A stretch of 64,000 nt of DNA from Paraburkholderia sp. Its GTDB lineage: Bacteria > Pseudomonadota > Gammaproteobacteria > Burkholderiales > Burkholderiaceae. Positions 20,343 to 28,209 of this stretch are shown piece after piece; within the stretch, counting starts at the first letter, position 1, and every line of letters starts with the position of its first letter. The stretch spans positions 20,075 through 84,074 of the forward strand of contig NZ_SCRP01000018.1 of the NCBI RefSeq assembly GCF_004298475.1. The letters are read 5' to 3'. Both the position numbers and the translations under genes were made by a program. Under the pieces are notes generated by a model. The model saw only the letters and a program-made list of their open reading frames with translations. It searched no databases and was not told where the DNA came from.

Positions 20343-20810
20343 TCAGCGCGGCACGAGCACCGTGCGCACCGGACTGCCGCCGCCCAGCATCGTGCCGCGG
20401 CAGCCCGGTGTGCCGCATCGGCACGCGTACATCAGGCGCGTTTCATCGCTCGCGTCGCTTTCGAGTTCCAGCGCGTAATCGATGAACAGTTCCTCGCCCG
20501 CACGGATATCGCAGATCGCGTCGATGAATACGCGATTGCCGATTTCAATCGTTTCGCAATTTGCCGCGCACGCGTGATTGAGCCAGCGCGCGCCATTGCC
20601 GCCGCGTCCGCCATCGATCACGCGGCCGTTGGACAGTCCGAACAGAAACGTATGCGCGCAGTCGGCGCGCGATTGCCAGTGGCGCGCCGCCTCGCGCCAG
20701 GTGGTCACCTTGCCCCGGTATTCGAAGATCCGCTCGCCCGCGCGCAGCGCGCACAGGGCAAAGACGCCCCGGCCATGCACGGGGGAGTGTCGCACTGAAA
20801 CTCGTCTCAT
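20343..20810 (-). CDS. SET-domain protein-lysine methyltransferase-like protein
   Basis: The 155-residue protein is almost entirely a SET domain: VRHSPVHGRGVFAL at the N-terminus, the SAM-binding RWLNHACAANCE (NHxCxxN type), GEELFIDY (ELxxDY type), and a post-SET cysteine cluster YACRCGTPGCRGTML. SET enzymes transfer methyl groups to lysines of proteins. They are best known in eukaryotes, but free-standing bacterial forms are seen in Burkholderia and other groups; their targets are mostly unknown. The start at 20810 follows a run of ATC codons and lacks a strong ribosome binding site. There is no partner gene nearby that points to a substrate. Confidence 0.85.
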   Translation of the reverse strand: MRRVSVRHSPVHGRGVFALCALRAGERIFEYRGKVTTWREAARHWQSRADCAHTFLFGLSNGRVIDGGRGGNGARWLNHACAANCETIEIGNRVFIDAICDIRAGEELFIDYALELESDASDETRLMYACRCGTPGCRGTMLGGGSPVRTVLVPR

Positions 20811-20970
20811 GATGATCGCGCTCGTTTGGATGGCGCGCAGTATAGGCGTCCAATATTCGCGCGGTGTGAATGTCGCGTGACGCCGCTTTTGTTGGACGAT
20901 TGAATCTGGGCACGTACAATCGGCCATTCATCGAACGCGATGCGGCATCTTAGCGATGCTAACGATTGCT

Positions 20971-21089: not shown

Positions 21090-21800
21090 TTGACACAGCG
21101 CCTCAACGAATTCGGGCAACCCATTGGCGAACCGGTTGCCGGCTGGACACCGCGCGAGCGGCCCGCCGATGTCACCCTGACCGGCGCCTGGTGCCGCCTC
21201 GAGCCGCTCGACGCGGCGCGCCACGCGGACGAGCTGGATCGCGCCTTTCGCGCCGCGCCGGATCAGCGGAGCTGGACCTATCTTTCTGCTGGCCCGTTCG
21301 ATACCAGCGAGGATTACCGCCGCTACGCGGAACGCGCGGCGCGCAGCACGGACCCGAAGCACTATGCGGTGATCGATCTCAAGACGGGCCGTGCGGTCGG
21401 CACGCTGGCGCTGATGCGGCAGGACCCGGCCAACGGCGTGATCGAAGTCGGCAGTGTGACGTTCTCGCCGCAGCTTCAGCAGACGCCGCTTTCCACCGAG
21501 GCGCAGTACCTGCTCATGGCCTACGCCTTCGATACGCTCGGTTATCGCCGCTACGAGTGGAAATGCGACAGCCTCAACGCACCTTCGCGCAAGGCGGCGG
21601 AGCGTCTGGGCTTTCGCTTCGAGGGGGTTTTCCGCCAGGCCGTGATCGTCAAGGGGCGCACGCGCGACACGGCGTGGTTCTCGATCATCGATACGGAATG
21701 GGCGCCGCTCAAGCGTGCGTTCGCGGCGTGGCTGGCGCCGGAAAACTTCGATGAGCAGGGGCGGCAGCGCGTGTCGCTCGCCACGCTCCGGGGCGCGTGA
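21090..21800 (+). CDS. GNAT-family N-acetyltransferase (RimJ/RimL type)
   Basis: The 236-residue protein has a RimJ/RimL-like acetyltransferase fold: GAWCRLEPLDAARHADELDRAF, then YAVIDLKTGRAVGTLALMRQDPANGVIEVGSVTFSPQLQQT with the central beta strands, and the C-terminal SLNAPSRKAAERLGFRFEG acetyl-CoA region. Members acetylate ribosomal protein N-termini, small amines or antibiotics; this long type is often annotated as a general acetyltransferase of unknown substrate. I chose the TTG start at 21090 because GGAG lies 7 bases upstream and the protein then begins MTQRLNEFGQPIG. An ATG at 21024 is in frame but adds a non-conserved extension. Confidence 0.82.
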   Translation: MTQRLNEFGQPIGEPVAGWTPRERPADVTLTGAWCRLEPLDAARHADELDRAFRAAPDQRSWTYLSAGPFDTSEDYRRYAERAARSTDPKHYAVIDLKTGRAVGTLALMRQDPANGVIEVGSVTFSPQLQQTPLSTEAQYLLMAYAFDTLGYRRYEWKCDSLNAPSRKAAERLGFRFEGVFRQAVIVKGRTRDTAWFSIIDTEWAPLKRAFAAWLAPENFDEQGRQRVSLATLRGA

Positions 21801-21892
21801 CGTACCACGCACATGACGCACAGCGTGCTGCGCGCGCCCTGGTCGCCACCCGTCGCCCGCCGTCGTCCGCCGTTATGCGCGCTTACCCGCTC

Positions 21893-24757
21893 TTACCCGC
21901 CGATCAGCTTCAGCCCCGCCGGGAGCGACTCGCCGAACATGCGCCCCGTATCGGCATCGTCGAGCGACACAACCTCGCGGACCATCGCGATCCACGCAGG
22001 CGGCGCGTTCGCCGATTCGAGCCGCCGGACGACGGCGTCGCGCATCGCCTGCGGCAGATCCCGCGAGCGGTCGCCGGTCATGCTGGCGATCTGCACGGCG
22101 GCGAACATCGCCGGCTCGACCTTGCGCCAGTTCACCGCGAGGATGACGTCGAGCCAGCGCGCCGCCACGTCGGGCGGCACGACACCGTGGGCGCTGCCGT
22201 AGAACGGCTGGCGCGCACCGATCCGGCCGACTGCCCACCAGCTTTGCGGGTTCGCGGACGGCTGCTGAAGCCGCGCGAGCAGGCCCTCGCCAATCTCGAT
22301 CTTGCGCTCGACCGCAATGTGTTCGAGCGAGGCGTACAGGCGGACCATGTCGGCCTGGCTCAGCTTCGCCGGATCGAACGGCAGTTTGTGGCGCCTGGCG
22401 CGCGCCGCCGCTTCGAGCCAGTCCATCGCTTCGAGCGCCTGCTGCTGCGCCGTTTCGGCGAGCCCGCCCGCCGCGCGCCGCCACAGCGTCCACCACTCCG
22501 ACCACACCTGGCTATCGTTGACGTGCTGAATGCCGTCGTCGAAGAGCGTCCATAGCTGCTCGACGCGCCACGCGTCGAGCGGATAGCCGAAGCCGGGCCG
22601 CACGCAGTAGCCCGCGAGATTCAGCCAGAGCCGTTCATGATCGGCAGAACGCCTGCGCCGGCCCGCGCGTTCCCAGAGCGCACCGAACAGTTCGCGCAGC
22701 AGCGCGCTGTCCCAGCCCTCGCGCGGCCCGAGGCGTTGTTCGAGTTGCGCGCGCAGCCGTTTCACTTCCTTCGGATCGACGCTCGCCGAGCGCGGCCCGA
22801 ATACCCGGTCGATGAGTCCGATGGCTTCGTCGAGCAGCGGATGACGCTGCGCCGTTTCCGCTTTGTCGCCAGTCTCGCCGCCGTGCTCGCTACGCCGAAG
22901 CTGGAATTCCAGCAGCCATCGTTGCGAAGGATCGTCGGTGGCGATGCAATGCACTTCCAGCGTGCCGAGTTCCGTAAGCGATGTCGTGAGCCTGACTGCG
23001 CGCTCGCCCGGCGCATTTGCGCCTGCGCGCTGCACGACGGTCGCGAGCGGCGGCAGGCGCACGAAGTCGCCGCTCGACAGATCGGCAAGCTCGCCCGGCT
23101 GCCATGCCGTATCGGCGACGGTGGAGACCAGATGGAACTGCACGGGGTGCCCGAGCCGCAGGGCGAACACGCGGTCGGCGAGATGGATTTCGTGCGCTTC
23201 CTGCGTGCCGCGCGGCAGCAGGCAGACGCCGCGCGGCGTCTCGCGTACGTCGTCCAGCACGAGGAAGTAGCTGCGCGGCGAGCCGCCGCCAATGCGCGGG
23301 GCCTCGCCCGAGCGGGCCAGCGCATAGGCGACCGCGCCGCGCGCCACGGCAACGTCCGGCTGGTCGTTTTGCAGGATGTGCAGCGGTTGCCCGCGCCAGT
23401 TGCCGAGCGTGTCGGCGAGGCGCGCGGAAAGCGCCTGCGCGCGAAAGACGCCGCCGTTCAGGAGCAGCGTATCCGGCACCGGCACGGACTGCGCTTGTGC
23501 AGCGCCCGACGCGTCGCTCTGCGCTTGTCCCGATGCTTCGCCCAACGCTTCGCGCGACGGCGCCGCGAAGCGGTCCAGAAACGCCGCGATGTGCCGCGTG
23601 ATCGCCGGATCGGCGGCATAGGGCAAGCCGAATTCGACCAGCGCCGCACGCGAGCGGCGCGGCAATTCGCGCGCATCGGTCTGCGGAAAGAAGCCGTCGA
23701 CGACCACCTGCTCGACTTCCTCGCGGCGCAGGTGCGTCGTGCGCGCGCCGCCCACGAGCCGCGCGCCCGCGCCGAGCAGCGTGACCGGAACGCTGGCGGG
23801 CGCTGCTGCGTCCAGCAATTGTTCCTTCGCGGCGCGGCATCGTTCGACCAGCTGCGACAGGCTTGCCGCCGACAGCCGCGTCTCGCCCGGCTGCGCGGCG
23901 GCAAGATGCGCCTCGACAAGATGCGCGAGCGCGAGATCCATGTTGTCGCCGCCGAGCATCAGATGGTTGCCCACGCCGATGCGCGTCAACTGCGGCTTGC
24001 CGTCCTCCACCTGCACCTTGATGAGCGTGAGGTCGGTCGTGCCGCCGCCCACGTCGCAGACGAGCACGAGGCGCGTGCCGGCGAGTTCGGCGTCGAGCGT
24101 CGCGCGATGGTGGAACAGCCAGTCGTAGAACGCGGCCTGCGGTTCTTCGAGCAGGCGCAGCGCGGGCAGCCCGGCGAGCCGCGCGGCTTCGAGCGTCAGC
24201 GCGCGCGCACCGTCGTCGAACGAGGCGGGCACGGTGAGGACCACATCCTGCTCTTCGAGCGGCGCATGCGGGAAACGCCGGTTCCACGCGGCGCGCACGT
24301 GCGCGAGGTAGCTGGCGCTGGCGGCGACGGGCGAGACCTTGCGCGCGTCGTCGGGCGCGCCCCACGGCAGGATCGGCGCGAGACGGTCGACCGACGCGTG
24401 CGAAAGCCAGCTTTTCGCGCTGCTCACGAGCCGCCCCGGCACCTGCGCGCCGAGCGTGCGCGCGAACTGGCCGATCACGGCCTGCGGCGCTTCCGTGGCA
24501 TCGGCGCTATCGGTCGTGGCGGCGCCGCTCCACGGCAGGCGCAGATCGTCTGCCGCCAGTTCACCCGGCGCGGGGTGATAGCGCGCGGACGGCAACAGCG
24601 GCCGCGCGTGCACTTCGCCCGGCCCCACGAGCTGATCGACGTCGAAGACGCGGATCTGCCCGCCGTCCGCCTTGCCGTTCGCCTTGCTGTTTGCCTCGAC
24701 GTACGCTACGACGGTGTTGCTCGTCCCGAGGTCGATGCCGACGAGGTATGACTTCAT
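21893..24757 (-). CDS. Hsp70-like ATPase with large C-terminal domain (DUF3731 type)
   Basis: The 954-residue product has an actin-like ATPase domain in its first 500 or so residues: GIDLGTSNTVVA (phosphate 1), LVCDVGGGTTDLTLI (phosphate 2) and LLLNGGVFRAQAL (adenosine). It lacks a normal DnaK substrate-binding domain. The second half (about 540-954) is mostly helical, with repeats rich in Leu/Trp/Arg (LWLNLAGYCVRPGFGYPLDAWRVEQLWTLFDDG). It matches what I remember as DUF3731, a domain found only joined to Hsp70 ATPases. It is the last gene of the DUF2760-Hsp70-Hsp70 operon, five bases after its neighbour. No client, co-chaperone or function is established. Confidence 0.85.
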   Translation of the reverse strand: MKSYLVGIDLGTSNTVVAYVEANSKANGKADGGQIRVFDVDQLVGPGEVHARPLLPSARYHPAPGELAADDLRLPWSGAATTDSADATEAPQAVIGQFARTLGAQVPGRLVSSAKSWLSHASVDRLAPILPWGAPDDARKVSPVAASASYLAHVRAAWNRRFPHAPLEEQDVVLTVPASFDDGARALTLEAARLAGLPALRLLEEPQAAFYDWLFHHRATLDAELAGTRLVLVCDVGGGTTDLTLIKVQVEDGKPQLTRIGVGNHLMLGGDNMDLALAHLVEAHLAAAQPGETRLSAASLSQLVERCRAAKEQLLDAAAPASVPVTLLGAGARLVGGARTTHLRREEVEQVVVDGFFPQTDARELPRRSRAALVEFGLPYAADPAITRHIAAFLDRFAAPSREALGEASGQAQSDASGAAQAQSVPVPDTLLLNGGVFRAQALSARLADTLGNWRGQPLHILQNDQPDVAVARGAVAYALARSGEAPRIGGGSPRSYFLVLDDVRETPRGVCLLPRGTQEAHEIHLADRVFALRLGHPVQFHLVSTVADTAWQPGELADLSSGDFVRLPPLATVVQRAGANAPGERAVRLTTSLTELGTLEVHCIATDDPSQRWLLEFQLRRSEHGGETGDKAETAQRHPLLDEAIGLIDRVFGPRSASVDPKEVKRLRAQLEQRLGPREGWDSALLRELFGALWERAGRRRRSADHERLWLNLAGYCVRPGFGYPLDAWRVEQLWTLFDDGIQHVNDSQVWSEWWTLWRRAAGGLAETAQQQALEAMDWLEAAARARRHKLPFDPAKLSQADMVRLYASLEHIAVERKIEIGEGLLARLQQPSANPQSWWAVGRIGARQPFYGSAHGVVPPDVAARWLDVILAVNWRKVEPAMFAAVQIASMTGDRSRDLPQAMRDAVVRRLESANAPPAWIAMVREVVSLDDADTGRMFGESLPAGLKLIGG

Positions 24758-24762
24758 CGGAC

Positions 24763-26613
24763 TCAAGCGTTGACGCCGCCGCGCACGTCGAATTCGACTT
24801 TCCAGCGCTCGTCCGTGCCGCTCGATACGGCTTCGAGTTCGAGCGTGCCCGCTTCGGTCACGCGCGCGTGCAGCTTCACGGGCACGACTTCGCCGGGCGT
24901 GCGGCCTTCGGGCGGCAGCGTGGCCTGGATTTCCTCGAGTTCCTGCAGTTCGTCGGGCGACCAGTAGTCGAGCATCGTGCCGACCTGATCCTGCCGCCGC
25001 ACCGACGATCCGAAGAAGCGGAAGTGCACGGGCTCGCCGACCACGAGGCCGAATTCCTGCGGCGGCAGCGCGGCGTCCGTGCCTTCTTCCATGCCGAAGG
25101 GCGCGACGCACAGCGCCGAAACCGGCGGTTCGAGACCGGGGACGGCGGGCATGGCCGATTCGATTGCGATGTAGTACGCGCGCGCCGTGCCGCCGCGAAT
25201 GCGCACGCCTTTGCCGCGCTTCACGTAGCCGTAGTACGCGGCGCCGCGTGCGACCGCGAGATCGAGGTCGGCGCCGCCGAGCAGGCGTGCGGGCGCGGCG
25301 CCCTCGGCGGCGAGCCAGCCGTTGAGCACGCCGAGAATGCGCTCGGTCAGCAGGGCGGACTTGAACACGCCGCCGTTGAACAGCACGGCGGTCGGATGGA
25401 GGAAGCTTGCGCCCGGCGCGGCGGACACGCCGCCGGGTTCGGCGAATTCGGCGAGTGCGGCGATCTGCTTGCCGAGGAAGGCCGCGAGGTGACGCGTGAT
25501 GCCTGCGTCCTGCGCGTACGGCAGGCCGAGCTGCGTGAGGCCGGCGCGTGCGCGGCTCACGGGCCGCGCTGCCGCGTCGGCCTGCGGGAAGAAGCCTTCG
25601 AGAATGGTTTGCGTGAGTTCGTCGCGGGTCAGCTCGGTGCGGATCGAGCCGCCGATCAGCTTCGAGCCGCGGCTCGGCACGACGAGCGGCACGGCGCTCG
25701 CGGCGGGGTCGCTCAGCAGCGTTTCCTTGGCGGCGCGGCACGCGTAGGTCAGCGCACGCAATTGCCACGGATCGGCCTGCGTGCCCTGCGCTGCGAGCTT
25801 GCGCGCGACGACGTGCGCGAGCGCGAGATCCATGTTGTCGCCGCCCAGCAGAATGTGTTCGCCGACGGCGACGCGATGCAGTTCGAGATTGCCTTCGCGC
25901 TCGATGACGGCGATCAGCGAGAGGTCGGTTGTGCCGCCGCCCACGTCGACGACCAGAATGATGTCGCCCACCTTCACTTCTTTGCGCCACGCGCCGCCGC
26001 TCTTCTGGATCCAGCTATAGAGCGCGGCCTGCGGCTCCTCCAGCAGCGTCATGCGCGCATAGCCGGCCGCCTGCGCGGCCTCGGCGGTCAGTTCACGCGC
26101 GGCGGGATCGAACGAGGCCGGAATCGTGACGGTGATGTCCTGGTCGCCGAACGGCGCGTCGGGATGCGCGTGGTCCCACGCTTCGCGCAAATGCGTGAGG
26201 TAGCGCACCGAGCTTTCGAGCGGCGAAACGCGCGCGACTTCGGGCGGCGCATCGCTCGGCAGGATGGCCGCGCGACGGTCCACGCCGGGATGGCAGAGCC
26301 AGCTCTTCGCGCTCGACACGAGGCGGATCGGCGTGCCCGCACCGCGGCTGCGCGCGAGTTCGCCCACGGCATAGTCGCGGCTCGCGGTCCACGGCAGGCT
26401 CAGGTCGCCGGGCGTGAGTTCGCCCGGATGCGGCAGATAGAGAAACGACGGCAGCAGATCCGGCGATTCGAGCGTGCCGGGCGCGGTGAGCTGCGCGACC
26501 GGCAGCACGCCCTGGCTGGCCTTGTCGCCGTCGCTCGCGGCAAGATCGACGTAGGACAGCGCGCAGTGCGTCGTGCCGAGATCGATACCGATGGAATAGC
26601 GCGGCTCGCTCAT
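24763..26613 (-). CDS. Hsp70-like ATPase (second paralogue of the pair)
   Basis: The 616-residue protein has the same three nucleotide-binding motifs as its neighbour: GIDLGTTHCALSYVD, LVVDVGGGTTDLSLI and VLFNGGVFKSALL. It shares other features too (LVSSAKSWLCHPGVDR, ITRHLAAFLGKQI), so the two arose by duplication. After the ATPase domain comes a short beta-rich part (about 510-616) ending ERWKVEFDVRGGVNA, shorter than the DnaK peptide-binding domain. It is close to the YegD/HscC-like branch of Hsp70 proteins. Its start overlaps the DUF2760 stop as ATGA and it is separated by five bases from the 954-residue gene. The pair probably works as a hetero-assembly. Confidence 0.88.
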   Translation of the reverse strand: MSEPRYSIGIDLGTTHCALSYVDLAASDGDKASQGVLPVAQLTAPGTLESPDLLPSFLYLPHPGELTPGDLSLPWTASRDYAVGELARSRGAGTPIRLVSSAKSWLCHPGVDRRAAILPSDAPPEVARVSPLESSVRYLTHLREAWDHAHPDAPFGDQDITVTIPASFDPAARELTAEAAQAAGYARMTLLEEPQAALYSWIQKSGGAWRKEVKVGDIILVVDVGGGTTDLSLIAVIEREGNLELHRVAVGEHILLGGDNMDLALAHVVARKLAAQGTQADPWQLRALTYACRAAKETLLSDPAASAVPLVVPSRGSKLIGGSIRTELTRDELTQTILEGFFPQADAAARPVSRARAGLTQLGLPYAQDAGITRHLAAFLGKQIAALAEFAEPGGVSAAPGASFLHPTAVLFNGGVFKSALLTERILGVLNGWLAAEGAAPARLLGGADLDLAVARGAAYYGYVKRGKGVRIRGGTARAYYIAIESAMPAVPGLEPPVSALCVAPFGMEEGTDAALPPQEFGLVVGEPVHFRFFGSSVRRQDQVGTMLDYWSPDELQELEEIQATLPPEGRTPGEVVPVKLHARVTEAGTLELEAVSSGTDERWKVEFDVRGGVNA

Positions 26614-27221
26614 AGCTCCACCTCGGCCGGGGCGATCACGGTCACGTCGTGGGTCTTGACGAGCTTCGGCAGGCGGACGTCGGCGACGCGCCAGCCGCGG
26701 TGCGCGATGCTGCCGTTAAACGGCGCCTTGCCGACGACGTTGCCGGTGAGGCGGACCGCGCTGGCGTCGAAGCCTTCCGCGAGCGTGATGCGGCTGCCTT
26801 CGGCTTCGTTGCGCACGGGCTCGATCGTGAAGTGCTCGCGCAGCGTCGTGCGGCAACCTTCGTGAACGAGGCGGGCCGCAGCGCCGATATCGGCATCGGA
26901 ATAGCCCGCGATGTTTTCTTCGACGAAATCGATGAAGCGTGCGTTGCGCTGGAGCAGGCCCAGCAGTTGAAGGGCCGAATCGGGGCTCGCTGCCTCGATG
27001 GCGGGCGCGGGCTGCACGGGGACGGGCGCGGGTTGCACGGCGGCGGGTGTGGATTGCACGGCAACTGGCGCAGCAACGGGCGCTGCGGCAGGTTCGGGCA
27101 GCGGTGCGCCTTCGCGCAGGCGGCGGACATTGGCGGCGAGGTTGCTGTCGCCGAGAATGGCGAAAAACGAGCCGACGGCGACGGAAAACCGGCCGATGAA
27201 CGAGAGATTCGATTCGGTCAT
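26610..27221 (-). CDS. DUF2760 protein, first gene of the Hsp70-pair operon
   Basis: This 203-residue protein begins with an amphipathic or weakly hydrophobic segment (LSFIGRFSVAVGSFFAILGDSN), then a Pro/Ala/Val-rich linker (about residues 40-75). The conserved DUF2760 domain follows: ALQLLGLLQRNARFIDFVEENIAGYSDADIGAAARLVHEGCR and a C-terminal beta-rich part ending HDVTVIAPAEVEL. The N-terminal segment may bind membranes. ATG at 27221 has AGGAG 10 bases upstream. The gene overlaps the next Hsp70 gene as ATGA. DUF2760 genes travel with paired Hsp70 genes in many proteobacteria, so it is a likely partner or targeting subunit, but that is inference. Confidence 0.85.
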   Translation of the reverse strand: MTESNLSFIGRFSVAVGSFFAILGDSNLAANVRRLREGAPLPEPAAAPVAAPVAVQSTPAAVQPAPVPVQPAPAIEAASPDSALQLLGLLQRNARFIDFVEENIAGYSDADIGAAARLVHEGCRTTLREHFTIEPVRNEAEGSRITLAEGFDASAVRLTGNVVGKAPFNGSIAHRGWRVADVRLPKLVKTHDVTVIAPAEVEL

Positions 27222-27684
27222 GAAAAACTGCTCCTGGAGGCTCGCCTGAACGGCGAGCAGGCCGGCCGGGGCTCGATGCGAGCCATGCAGGCGGCGGCCA
27301 GCGTGGAAAATCCGGGCCCGTTGAGGGCTCAAAACCGCTATTTTGCCTTGTTGTCGCCGCAAGCCGGACAAAATCCGGCCGCGATGCCGGGCGACGGCAC
27401 TTTTGCACGCGTGCCGCCGTTGGCCATTTCCATGTGATTTGCGCGCCTGGCGACGATTTGGCGACCGCGTTGTTGACGCCTGGTTGATGACGCGCTTTTG
27501 TCGATTCCAGCCGACGCGCAGGCGTTGTCTTGCCACAGTCGGGCGAAGCCGCCTGGCGGACTCCGGGTCGCCGGATATATAACGGAGTGCGAATCAAAAT
27601 GGCGCGCAGGCTGCGGTGAACGCAGCCTGCGCGCCTGCTTCGAAGATCTCCGGGAAAGCGTTGTGTCGAACGCCGTTGCCGGCG
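27222..27684. promoter_or_regulatory. Spacer with the operon promoter of the Hsp70 pair
   Basis: These 463 bases lie between the HiPIP terminator and the DUF2760 start, both on the minus strand, and must hold the promoter of the DUF2760-Hsp70-Hsp70 operon. A TATATA element on the minus strand near 27576 could be a -10, without a clear -35. I see no convincing heat-shock (sigma32) promoter. No gene is supported. Confidence 0.4.
27596..27635 (-). terminator. Strong terminator after the HiPIP gene
   Basis: A perfect 15-bp stem GGCGCGCAGGCTGCG (27601-27615) / CGCAGCCTGCGCGCC (27621-27635) with a 5-base loop is followed on the minus strand by ATTTTGATT. It ends the HiPIP transcript, whose stop codon is about 50 bases upstream. 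Confidence 0.85.
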
Positions 27685-27996
27685 TTACGCCTTCTTCACA
27701 TACGCATTGCACCAGCCGGTGCTGTCGACGAGCTTGCCGCCGAAGATCGGGCATGGCCCGCTCGCTGCACCCGCCTTACCCTGAAACAACTGGCAGTTCG
27801 AGCACGACTGGCCGGCCTGAAACTTGGGGAACTTTGCCTTATCCACCTGCGCGGCATGGGTCCGGTAGCCCATCGCCTGGGCCTGGGGATCGCTCTCGGA
27901 GAGCGCCGGGGCGTCGGCGCGCGCCTCCTCGGTGAGGATCGACGACGAAGCGAGCGTGGCGGCGATAGCAATGAACTTACGACGTGAGCATGGCAT
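27685..27996 (-). CDS. High-potential iron-sulfur protein (HiPIP)
   Basis: The 103-residue precursor carries a twin-arginine-type signal (CSRRKFIAIAATLASSSILT) and a mature part with the four cluster cysteines at about 65, 68, 82 and 96 in the HiPIP spacing (CSNCQLFQG...PCPIFGG...GWCNAYV). HiPIPs are soluble periplasmic electron carriers holding one 4Fe-4S cluster, exported folded by Tat. It probably donates electrons to a terminal oxidase or another respiratory enzyme; no specific partner is next to it. The start has a GAGGGAG site. It has its own strong terminator. Confidence 0.93.
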   Translation of the reverse strand: MPCSRRKFIAIAATLASSSILTEEARADAPALSESDPQAQAMGYRTHAAQVDKAKFPKFQAGQSCSNCQLFQGKAGAASGPCPIFGGKLVDSTGWCNAYVKKA

Positions 27997-28209
27997 CACA
28001 AGACTCCCTCTAATGGAGCGCGCCTTGGGGAAAGGATCGCGCGAGTTGGTGTTTGGGTCGAATGTTGCAGTGACGAGCCTAAAACTTGCCGTGGGCTGCC
28101 GCAAGAAATTTTGCAATGTTTTCGAATTGGCCGGCGCGCAACTGCACGCCGCCGCACCTTGCCGCACTCCACTGCACCTCGCCGCACGCCGTTTCAACTG
28201 CTGGCAACG

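Follow-up and report, generated by a model that had tools for sequence, protein, structure and literature searches.

What is the function of two divergent Hsp70 ATPases whose genes are packed against a gene of the DUF2760 family? The question is raised by an operon in the DNA of Paraburkholderia sp. (NCBI RefSeq assembly GCF_004298475.1, contig NZ_SCRP01000018.1, positions 20,075 to 84,074 of the forward strand). The whole stretch of 64,000 nucleotides is referred to as the window, and positions are counted from its first letter. The operon lies on the minus strand and consists of the DUF2760 gene, a gene for a first Hsp70, named HspA here, and a gene for an Hsp70 with a C-terminal DUF3731 domain, named HspB. 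That the linkage of these three genes is real is near certain. With about even confidence, the operon is read as encoding a dedicated, membrane-tethered and J-domain-independent Hsp70 pair, for which the DUF2760 protein would act as anchor and controlling co-factor. The host genome is Paraburkholderia-like (4.25 Mb, 99.98% complete), and the closest named relative of the HspB encoded in the window is 95% identical.

A conserved three-gene cassette

The DUF2760 gene (26610..27221, minus strand as all features of the operon) is an open reading frame of 203 amino acids, of which residues 80-202 match PF10816 (E 5.8e-55). It overlaps the gene of HspA (24763..26613; 616 amino acids; PF00012 E 1e-16) by an ATGA at 26610..26613, and 5 bases (24758-24762) separate HspA from HspB (21893..24757; 954 amino acids; PF00012 E 8.1e-20). 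The DUF3731 domain of HspB occupies residues 704-951 (21905..22648; PF12531 E 2.6e-104). With 184.9 and 348.9 bits at curated cut-offs of 25, the DUF2760 protein and HspB are clear members of PF10816 and PF12531, respectively. In NCBIfam, no family was found for the DUF2760 protein, and HspA and HspB have only Hsp70 and actin-like matches far below the cut-offs. The initial annotation had described three tightly packed genes, the first two overlapping by ATGA and the last two 5 bases apart, and its coordinates proved to be exact.

The distribution of the families was surveyed in Pseudomonadota and in 14 named control genomes; neither DUF2760 nor DUF3731 is found in any of the 14. Two samples were used; they overlap partly, and the related genomes within them are not independent of one another. 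Of the 299 Pseudomonadota genomes in the first, 22 contain DUF2760 and 21 contain DUF3731, with 21 shared (Fisher p 2e-31), and the same sample gives 9 of 154 at the genus level for both families (p 9e-15). The corresponding numbers in 369 Gammaproteobacteria are 13 and 14, with 13 shared (p 5e-23). For both genomes with a single family, a contig end that cuts the cassette offers an explanation but no proof. In one of them (G026, locus L177), DUF2760 and HspA are present, the contig stops just past HspA, and no DUF3731 is encoded elsewhere in the genome. In the other (G461, locus L217), HspB is present and HspA runs off the contig end.

Gene order is conserved along with gene content. Among the best 80 of 363 stretches that encode an HspB relative, all of them Burkholderiaceae loci, the order DUF2760-HspA-HspB on one strand is found in 79, including two (L058, L096) in which DUF2760 is cut by the contig start. 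The contig of the 80th (L074) begins inside HspA. Nine of these 79 loci have more than 60 bases between HspA and HspB, with a maximum of 998 in L095. Paraburkholderia xenovorans LB400 and Cupriavidus necator also carry the cassette (L090 and L105). A detailed reading covered 51 loci, 47 of them with DUF2760. In all 47, HspA is encoded downstream of DUF2760 on the same strand; an overlap of 4 or 1 bases is seen in 30, and in 42 the two genes are no more than 60 bases apart. They are farthest apart in L144, at 511 bases, where the gene caller placed a frame of 137 amino acids in between. HspA and HspB are at most 60 bases apart in 27 and at most 300 in 38 of the 43 loci in which this distance could be measured, the maximum being 2919 bases in L131 with other genes in between.

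In three genomes (G486, G586, G053), HspB is located on another contig, away from HspA, and in G586 and G053 it is in pieces. The partner is therefore kept even when it is unlinked. Because HspB can sit elsewhere, the tightest unit consists of DUF2760 and HspA and not of the two ATPases. On a Thiodictyon plasmid, only DUF2760 and HspA are encoded; HspB is not on the plasmid, and the chromosome was not searched. In G053, HspB is found in two frames on one contig (L149, 10011-12801, minus strand) and DUF2760-HspA on another (L176), reflecting either a broken gene or an assembly error. The short reading frame of L149 was considered as an additional HspA and rejected, as it scores as the front part of the broken HspB.

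DUF2760 is near-core in the genus of the window (100 of 117 genomes) and patchy in the family (51 of 160). On plasmids, it was found in 11 of 72,556 records, of which seven are larger than 1.3 Mb. When shared neighbours were compared between seven lineage groups, only DUF2760, HspA and HspB recur in all of them. In a mirror-tree comparison of 42 loci, the pairwise distances of the three proteins are correlated at 0.94-0.97. The initial annotation had treated DUF2760, DUF3731 and Hsp70 genes as one dedicated unit. Their near-total co-occurrence, the linkage conserved in distant members of the phylum, the same order, the frequent overlap of start and stop codons and the parallel trees strongly support this view.

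HspA and HspB, two divergent Hsp70 ATPases

HspA and HspB share 41% identity over 641 aligned positions. Both have an Hsp70-type nucleotide-binding domain with the phosphate-1 (GIDLGT), phosphate-2 (DVGGGT) and adenosine-type (NGGV) motifs. In HspA, this domain comprises residues 7-468 (25210..26595) and aligns to residues 4-386 of DnaK (hhalign probability 99.5%), where the profile alignment ends. It is followed by a C-terminal module (residues 468-616, 24766..25212) that is common to both proteins, its copy in HspB being located at residues 484-632 (22862..23308; hhalign to the HspA module 99.9%, E 1.1e-33). A relation of the C-terminal modules of HspA and HspB to the substrate-binding domain of DnaK was not detectable in the profile comparison, which gave a probability of only 0.1%. 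The PDB matches of the HspA module are at chance level or absent and include no Hsp70. A multiple alignment had raised the idea that the module is a worn-down substrate-binding domain; the profile comparison gave no support for it. For DUF3731, likewise, only chance-level sequence matches are found in the PDB; from its order along the chain, the domain is proposed to take the place of the helical lid of DnaK. According to the initial annotation, both ATPases retain all three nucleotide motifs, neither has a normal peptide-binding domain, and one carries a large private C-terminal domain. The motifs are as described, the private domain is the DUF3731 of HspB, and the absence of a normal peptide-binding domain holds at the level of sequence.

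In a tree of nucleotide-binding domains with six DnaK, one HscA, one HscC and two YegD rows and MreB as root, HspA and HspB group together in a clade of their own (100/100), separate from DnaK/HscA/HscC (97/98) and from YegD. Under this root, HspA forms one clade and HspB not strictly one, so that either copy may have come first. Mean column identity is 44% in the HspB rows and 57% in the HspA rows, which come from partly different loci.

Individual residues were compared between 31 HspA and 40 HspB rows (71 in total) and 28 DnaK sequences. The catalytic residues are kept. K70, P143, E171, D194, T199 and D201 are present in 31 of 31 HspA and 40 of 40 HspB rows, D8 and T11 in 30 of 31 and 38 of 40, with gaps in the remaining rows, and R151, which we take to be a position of the Hsp70 allostery switch, in 31 of 31 and 32 of 40. 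The roles of K70 and P143 in Hsp70 are described in a passage of the review PMC8215388.

The positions that contact the J-domain are replaced for the most part. A passage of PMC8215388 gives R167, Q378, the linker residue L391, E206, D211 and E217 as J-domain contacts in DnaK. Q378 is replaced in all 71 rows, by Y or F in 69 of them, and R167 is kept in 2 of 31 HspA and 25 of 40 HspB rows. At N170 and T173, which are presumably J-domain contact positions as well, all 71 rows also differ from DnaK, with E throughout at the former and Q in 67 of 71 at the latter. All four of these residues are kept in the 28 DnaK sequences, the HscA of the host genome and the HscC of E. coli, both of which work with J-proteins, and in YegD they are not as in DnaK. 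Little information is gained from D211, which is mostly a gap in DnaK itself. A VLLLD-like string near the domain border is found in 28 of 28 DnaK sequences, in none of the 31 HspA rows and in one of the 40 HspB rows, and the VLLLD linker has no aligned counterpart in 69 of the 71 rows. Judged by the VLLLD linker, the J-contact residues and a position within the DnaK/HscA/HscC clade, neither HspA nor HspB is a canonical Hsp70.

A family-specific insertion of the form GFFP...GLPYAxDxxxTRHxAxFL is seen in the alignment at residues ~340-380 of HspA and 355-394 of HspB, around the equivalent of D326 in DnaK. In DnaK, D326 clamps the docked substrate-binding domain, as stated in a passage of PMC8215388.

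The DUF2760 protein

The DUF2760 protein of the window starts with a hydrophobic to amphipathic segment, FIGRFSVAVGSFF (residues 6-36, 27114..27206), that is proposed to bind the membrane. An Ala/Pro-rich linker with poorly conserved columns (residues 37-79, 26985..27113) connects it to the DUF2760 domain (residues 80-203, 26613..26984). Across the family, the C-terminal 124 residues are conserved and the N-terminus is not.

The N-termini of 46 DUF2760 proteins were examined for hydropathy, one of the 47 being too short as called. Segments were regarded as transmembrane-like if the Kyte-Doolittle value reached at least 1.9 over 19 residues. One or more such N-terminal segments are found in 19 of the 46 proteins, and in all 19 K/R outnumber D/E in the flank after the segment, so that the C-terminal domain is predicted to be cytoplasmic. 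Of the remaining 27 N-termini, 25, including that of the window, fit an aromatic-amphipathic pattern of the type FFxRxxxAxGxFF. The segments vary between lineages in sequence and number, yet they are hydrophobic, which suggests that the position at the membrane may matter more than the means by which it is reached. The initial annotation had considered the protein to be an adaptor with a possibly membrane-binding N-terminus. The membrane part of this claim gains support from hydropathy, from the shared motif and from the unlike but hydrophobic N-termini of other lineages.

The C-terminus ends in APAEVEL in the window and conforms to [EQ][VI]E[LV] followed by at most one residue in 47 of 47 proteins. 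This conserved tail resembles one that may be recognised by a partner. An HPD motif is absent from all 47 DUF2760 proteins, and relatives in the PDB are limited to chance-level matches or none. An AlphaFold2 prediction based on 66 Burkholderiaceae rows was not usable, with a mean predicted local distance difference test (pLDDT) value of 42.7; the low-confidence model contains helices at residues 8-24 and 26-36.

Genomic surroundings and interpretation

Upstream of the operon, a block CAACAAGGCAAAATA...GGTTTTGAGCCC at 27325-27353 (minus strand; CAACAAGGCAAAATAGCGGTTTTGAGCCC) is conserved in an alignment of 34 upstream sequences, those of the window and of 33 related loci of Burkholderiaceae. 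It is possibly the promoter or a regulatory site of the operon. No match to the sigma-70 consensus was found in 21400-28000, the conserved block included. Membership in the heat-shock regulon is not claimed: a loose heat-shock promoter pattern matched 6 of the 34 upstream sequences, and the window is not among them.

The six flanking genes that were scanned encode a GNAT acetyltransferase, a SET-domain protein, an alanine racemase, a high-potential iron-sulphur protein, a DbpA-type helicase and a MASE2-GGDEF protein. The SET-domain protein (PF00856, E 2.7e-20; 20343-20927, minus strand) lies two genes downstream of the operon; the domain is better known from eukaryotic histone methyltransferases. 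The similarity cluster of the GGDEF gene near the cassette also contains genes of ten other loci, one of which was confirmed as GGDEF. It was not accepted as a linked partner, since such genes are common and their architectures differ. In seven other loci, ten neighbours were scanned; most belong to housekeeping or metabolic families (sigma-70, DnaG, an ABC ATPase and CcmH among them), and one is a transposase-family nuclease. As noted in the initial annotation, no DnaJ or GrpE gene accompanies the operon; neither is found among the six neighbours, and GrpE was not searched genome-wide. The host genome contains four J-domain genes, all on contigs other than that of the operon.

Of four annotated plasmid loci, one has defence-rich surroundings. 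On the Thiodictyon plasmid pTs485 (L150), the surroundings of DUF2760 and HspA include a TIR-domain gene and genes with an anti-phage annotation (DUF499, DUF3780, DUF1156, phospholipase D). On plasmid pCC829_3 of Bradyrhizobium barranii (L151), typed as conjugative, the cassette is located between trb conjugation genes and a topoisomerase gene. On plasmid pCB82_1 of Bradyrhizobium sp. CB82 (L152), it is found ~1 kb upstream of a plasmid-borne groES-groEL pair. A phage origin was rejected, as 50,697 phage records contain no DUF2760 match. In IMG/VR, the DUF2760 and DUF3731 scans were empty and the HspA scan yielded two relatives; the scans were not exhaustive, since one of these two, L184, carries DUF3731. 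In L183 (7941-9794), an HspA-like gene is found on a 157 kb, possibly viral contig of the viral collection, some kilobases from transposase-like genes and with no DUF2760 in the 17.8 kb read. In L184 (2091-4994), also from the viral collection, an HspB-like gene with DUF3731 lies between genes for a C-terminal-processing-type protease and ClpS-ClpA-like proteins, which were named by reading their sequences and not by a family search.

The reading of the operon as a membrane-tethered, J-domain-independent pair can be put as a mechanism. The DUF2760 protein would bind the inner membrane from its cytoplasmic face by the N-terminus and present its conserved cytoplasmic domain and the C-terminal AxVEL tail to HspA. 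It may thereby be both the anchor and the ATPase-controlling partner of HspA, replacing a J-protein. HspA and its paralogue HspB would work as a pair in a physical complex with it, in which the DUF3731 domain of HspB, whose place behind the shared module corresponds to that of the helical lid in DnaK, may bind a client or a partner. ATP turnover would drive the remodelling of membrane-associated proteins as clients, much as HscC may act with its membrane-anchored DjlB/DjlC.

Several points weigh against this reading. The complex, the ATPase activity and the membrane location are inferred. The N-terminus of the window protein is only amphipathic, with a Kyte-Doolittle maximum of 1.67 at residue 6 and no clear transmembrane helix. 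Both the cut-off of 1.9 and the motif pattern were set after the rows had been viewed; at a cut-off of 1.6, the count becomes 26 of 46, including the window. With an unusable structural model, the role as adaptor has no backing from a fold. The R167 equivalent in 25 of 40 HspB rows leaves room for J-domain contact of HspB, and E206, which is A in 28 of 31 HspA rows, does not discriminate, as the HscA row has K. In addition, the MreB root of the tree of nucleotide-binding domains is subject to a long-branch warning, the mirror-tree correlations were obtained without a control gene and partly reflect species history, and no neighbour conserved across all lineage groups hints at a client.

J-domain proteins are essential co-chaperones of Hsp70, and DnaK, HscA and HscC are the three prokaryotic Hsp70 types according to a passage of PMC8215388. 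HspA and HspB share the nucleotide-binding domain, the catalytic residues and the P143 switch with the Hsp70s of the DnaK-DnaJ-GrpE and HscA-HscB systems. Unlike DnaK and HscA, they have no VLLLD linker and no substrate-binding domain detectable by profile, their J-contacts are replaced, and they fall into a separate clade. YegD of E. coli is likewise a divergent bacterial Hsp70 in which the J-contact positions checked differ from those of DnaK; in contrast to HspA and HspB, it is 450 amino acids long and forms its own branch in the tree, and neither DUF2760 nor DUF3731 is among the neighbours annotated for it in E. coli. In the HscC-DjlB/DjlC system of E. coli, a divergent bacterial Hsp70 also has dedicated partners encoded nearby, and these are membrane-anchored, which is only predicted for DUF2760. 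A plasma-membrane function of that system is suggested in a passage of PMC8215388. DjlB and DjlC are tail-anchored J-domain proteins, whereas DUF2760 proteins lack the HPD motif and their proposed anchor is N-terminal. HscC belongs to the clade of DnaK and HscA and has retained the J-contact residues that were checked, neither of which is true of HspA and HspB apart from R167 in part of HspB, and the operon of the window, unlike the HscC system, encodes two Hsp70s. Judged by the tests made on its sequence, with an anchor that is predicted and an HPD motif that is absent, the operon is not a member of this system. Two unequal Hsp70 paralogues, one with a changed C-terminal part, also cooperate in the eukaryotic Hsp70-Hsp110 and Ssz1-Zuo1-Ssb systems, which depend on J-proteins. 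The likeness to HspA and HspB lies in the two unequal paralogues, and these systems are set apart by description, being eukaryotic and J-dependent.

One alternative is that HspA and HspB are auxiliary general chaperones, which bind unfolded proteins as DnaK does and borrow DnaJ and GrpE from elsewhere in the genome. The retention of the Hsp70 catalytic residues and of the P143 switch in both proteins, the four J-domain proteins of the host, the R167 retained in many HspB rows and the groES-groEL pair beside the cassette on one Bradyrhizobium plasmid would all fit. The initial annotation had named general DnaK substitutes with standard co-chaperones as the case contrary to its own reading. Because the J-domain contact residues are replaced and the linker is missing, this is made unlikely, and the lack of a detectable substrate-binding domain and of J or GrpE genes among the six neighbours argues in the same direction. 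That no substrate-binding domain was detected would agree with a non-chaperone, membrane-bound, actin-like pair that does structural or signalling work, such as that of a nucleotide switch. Such a pair is also consistent with the weak MreB-type match of HspA (PF06723, E 1.2e-5, below cut-off) and with the chance-level PDB matches of DUF3731. We nevertheless regard it as improbable: the Hsp70 match is much stronger than that to MreB, the PDB matches listed for HspA are Hsp70s, and the allostery switch positions of Hsp70 are kept (P143 in 71 of 71 rows, R151 in 63 of 71).

Little credence is given to a defence or conflict module, that is, a membrane-bound NTPase pair that senses or blocks phage or plasmids. 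The Thiodictyon locus near anti-phage and TIR-domain genes and the copy adjoining conjugation genes point to it, as does a single weak PADLOC match, PDC-M61B (E 1e-6 and 1e-5), which is confined to ~90 residues surrounding the phosphate-2 motif and could be a generic one. A loose parallel to the HspA/HspB pair exists in GTPase-centred conflict systems, in which Hsp70 occurs with GrpE and, in a subset, with a second Hsp70 without peptide-binding domain, as described in a passage of PMC7159879. The mainly housekeeping or metabolic neighbours in other loci and the absence of DUF2760 from the phage records speak against defence, as does the near-core presence of DUF2760 in the genus. Such a distribution is unusual for defence genes. 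A slim chance is also left for HspB as an Hsp110-like exchange factor of HspA, with an incidental membrane link. The enlarged C-terminal part of one of two paralogues and the greater diversity of the HspB rows would be in line with this, whereas the closest coupling is that of DUF2760 with HspA and not of HspA with HspB, and membrane anchors recur in unlike forms.

PF10816 (DUF2760) and PF12531 (DUF3731, 'DNA-K related protein') are Pfam names without an assigned function. A literature search on DUF2760, DUF3731, 'DNA-K related protein' and the Pfam accessions found no paper, most subscription papers being outside the search. The families are thus already named in Pfam, and the operon is rated as a variant of an Hsp70 kind that was not found in the literature searched. 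A bolder and tentative proposal, which we consider possible and no more than that, is that the operon encodes an additional class of bacterial Hsp70 machine next to DnaK, HscA and HscC, made of two paralogues and with all classical accessory parts exchanged. In such a machine, a membrane-anchored DUF2760 protein would replace the J-protein, the second Hsp70 the exchange factor, the new module the peptide-binding domain and DUF3731 the lid, and the AxVEL tail would dock on an Hsp70 as the EEVD tail is read by other chaperone partners.

If the reading as a dedicated, membrane-tethered pair is true, the operon would show how the control of Hsp70 can be rebuilt around another co-factor, with the ATPase kept and the J-binding surface, the linker and the client domain changed. 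It would also direct attention to an activity at the inner membrane of Paraburkholderia, Cupriavidus and other genera that has not been explored.

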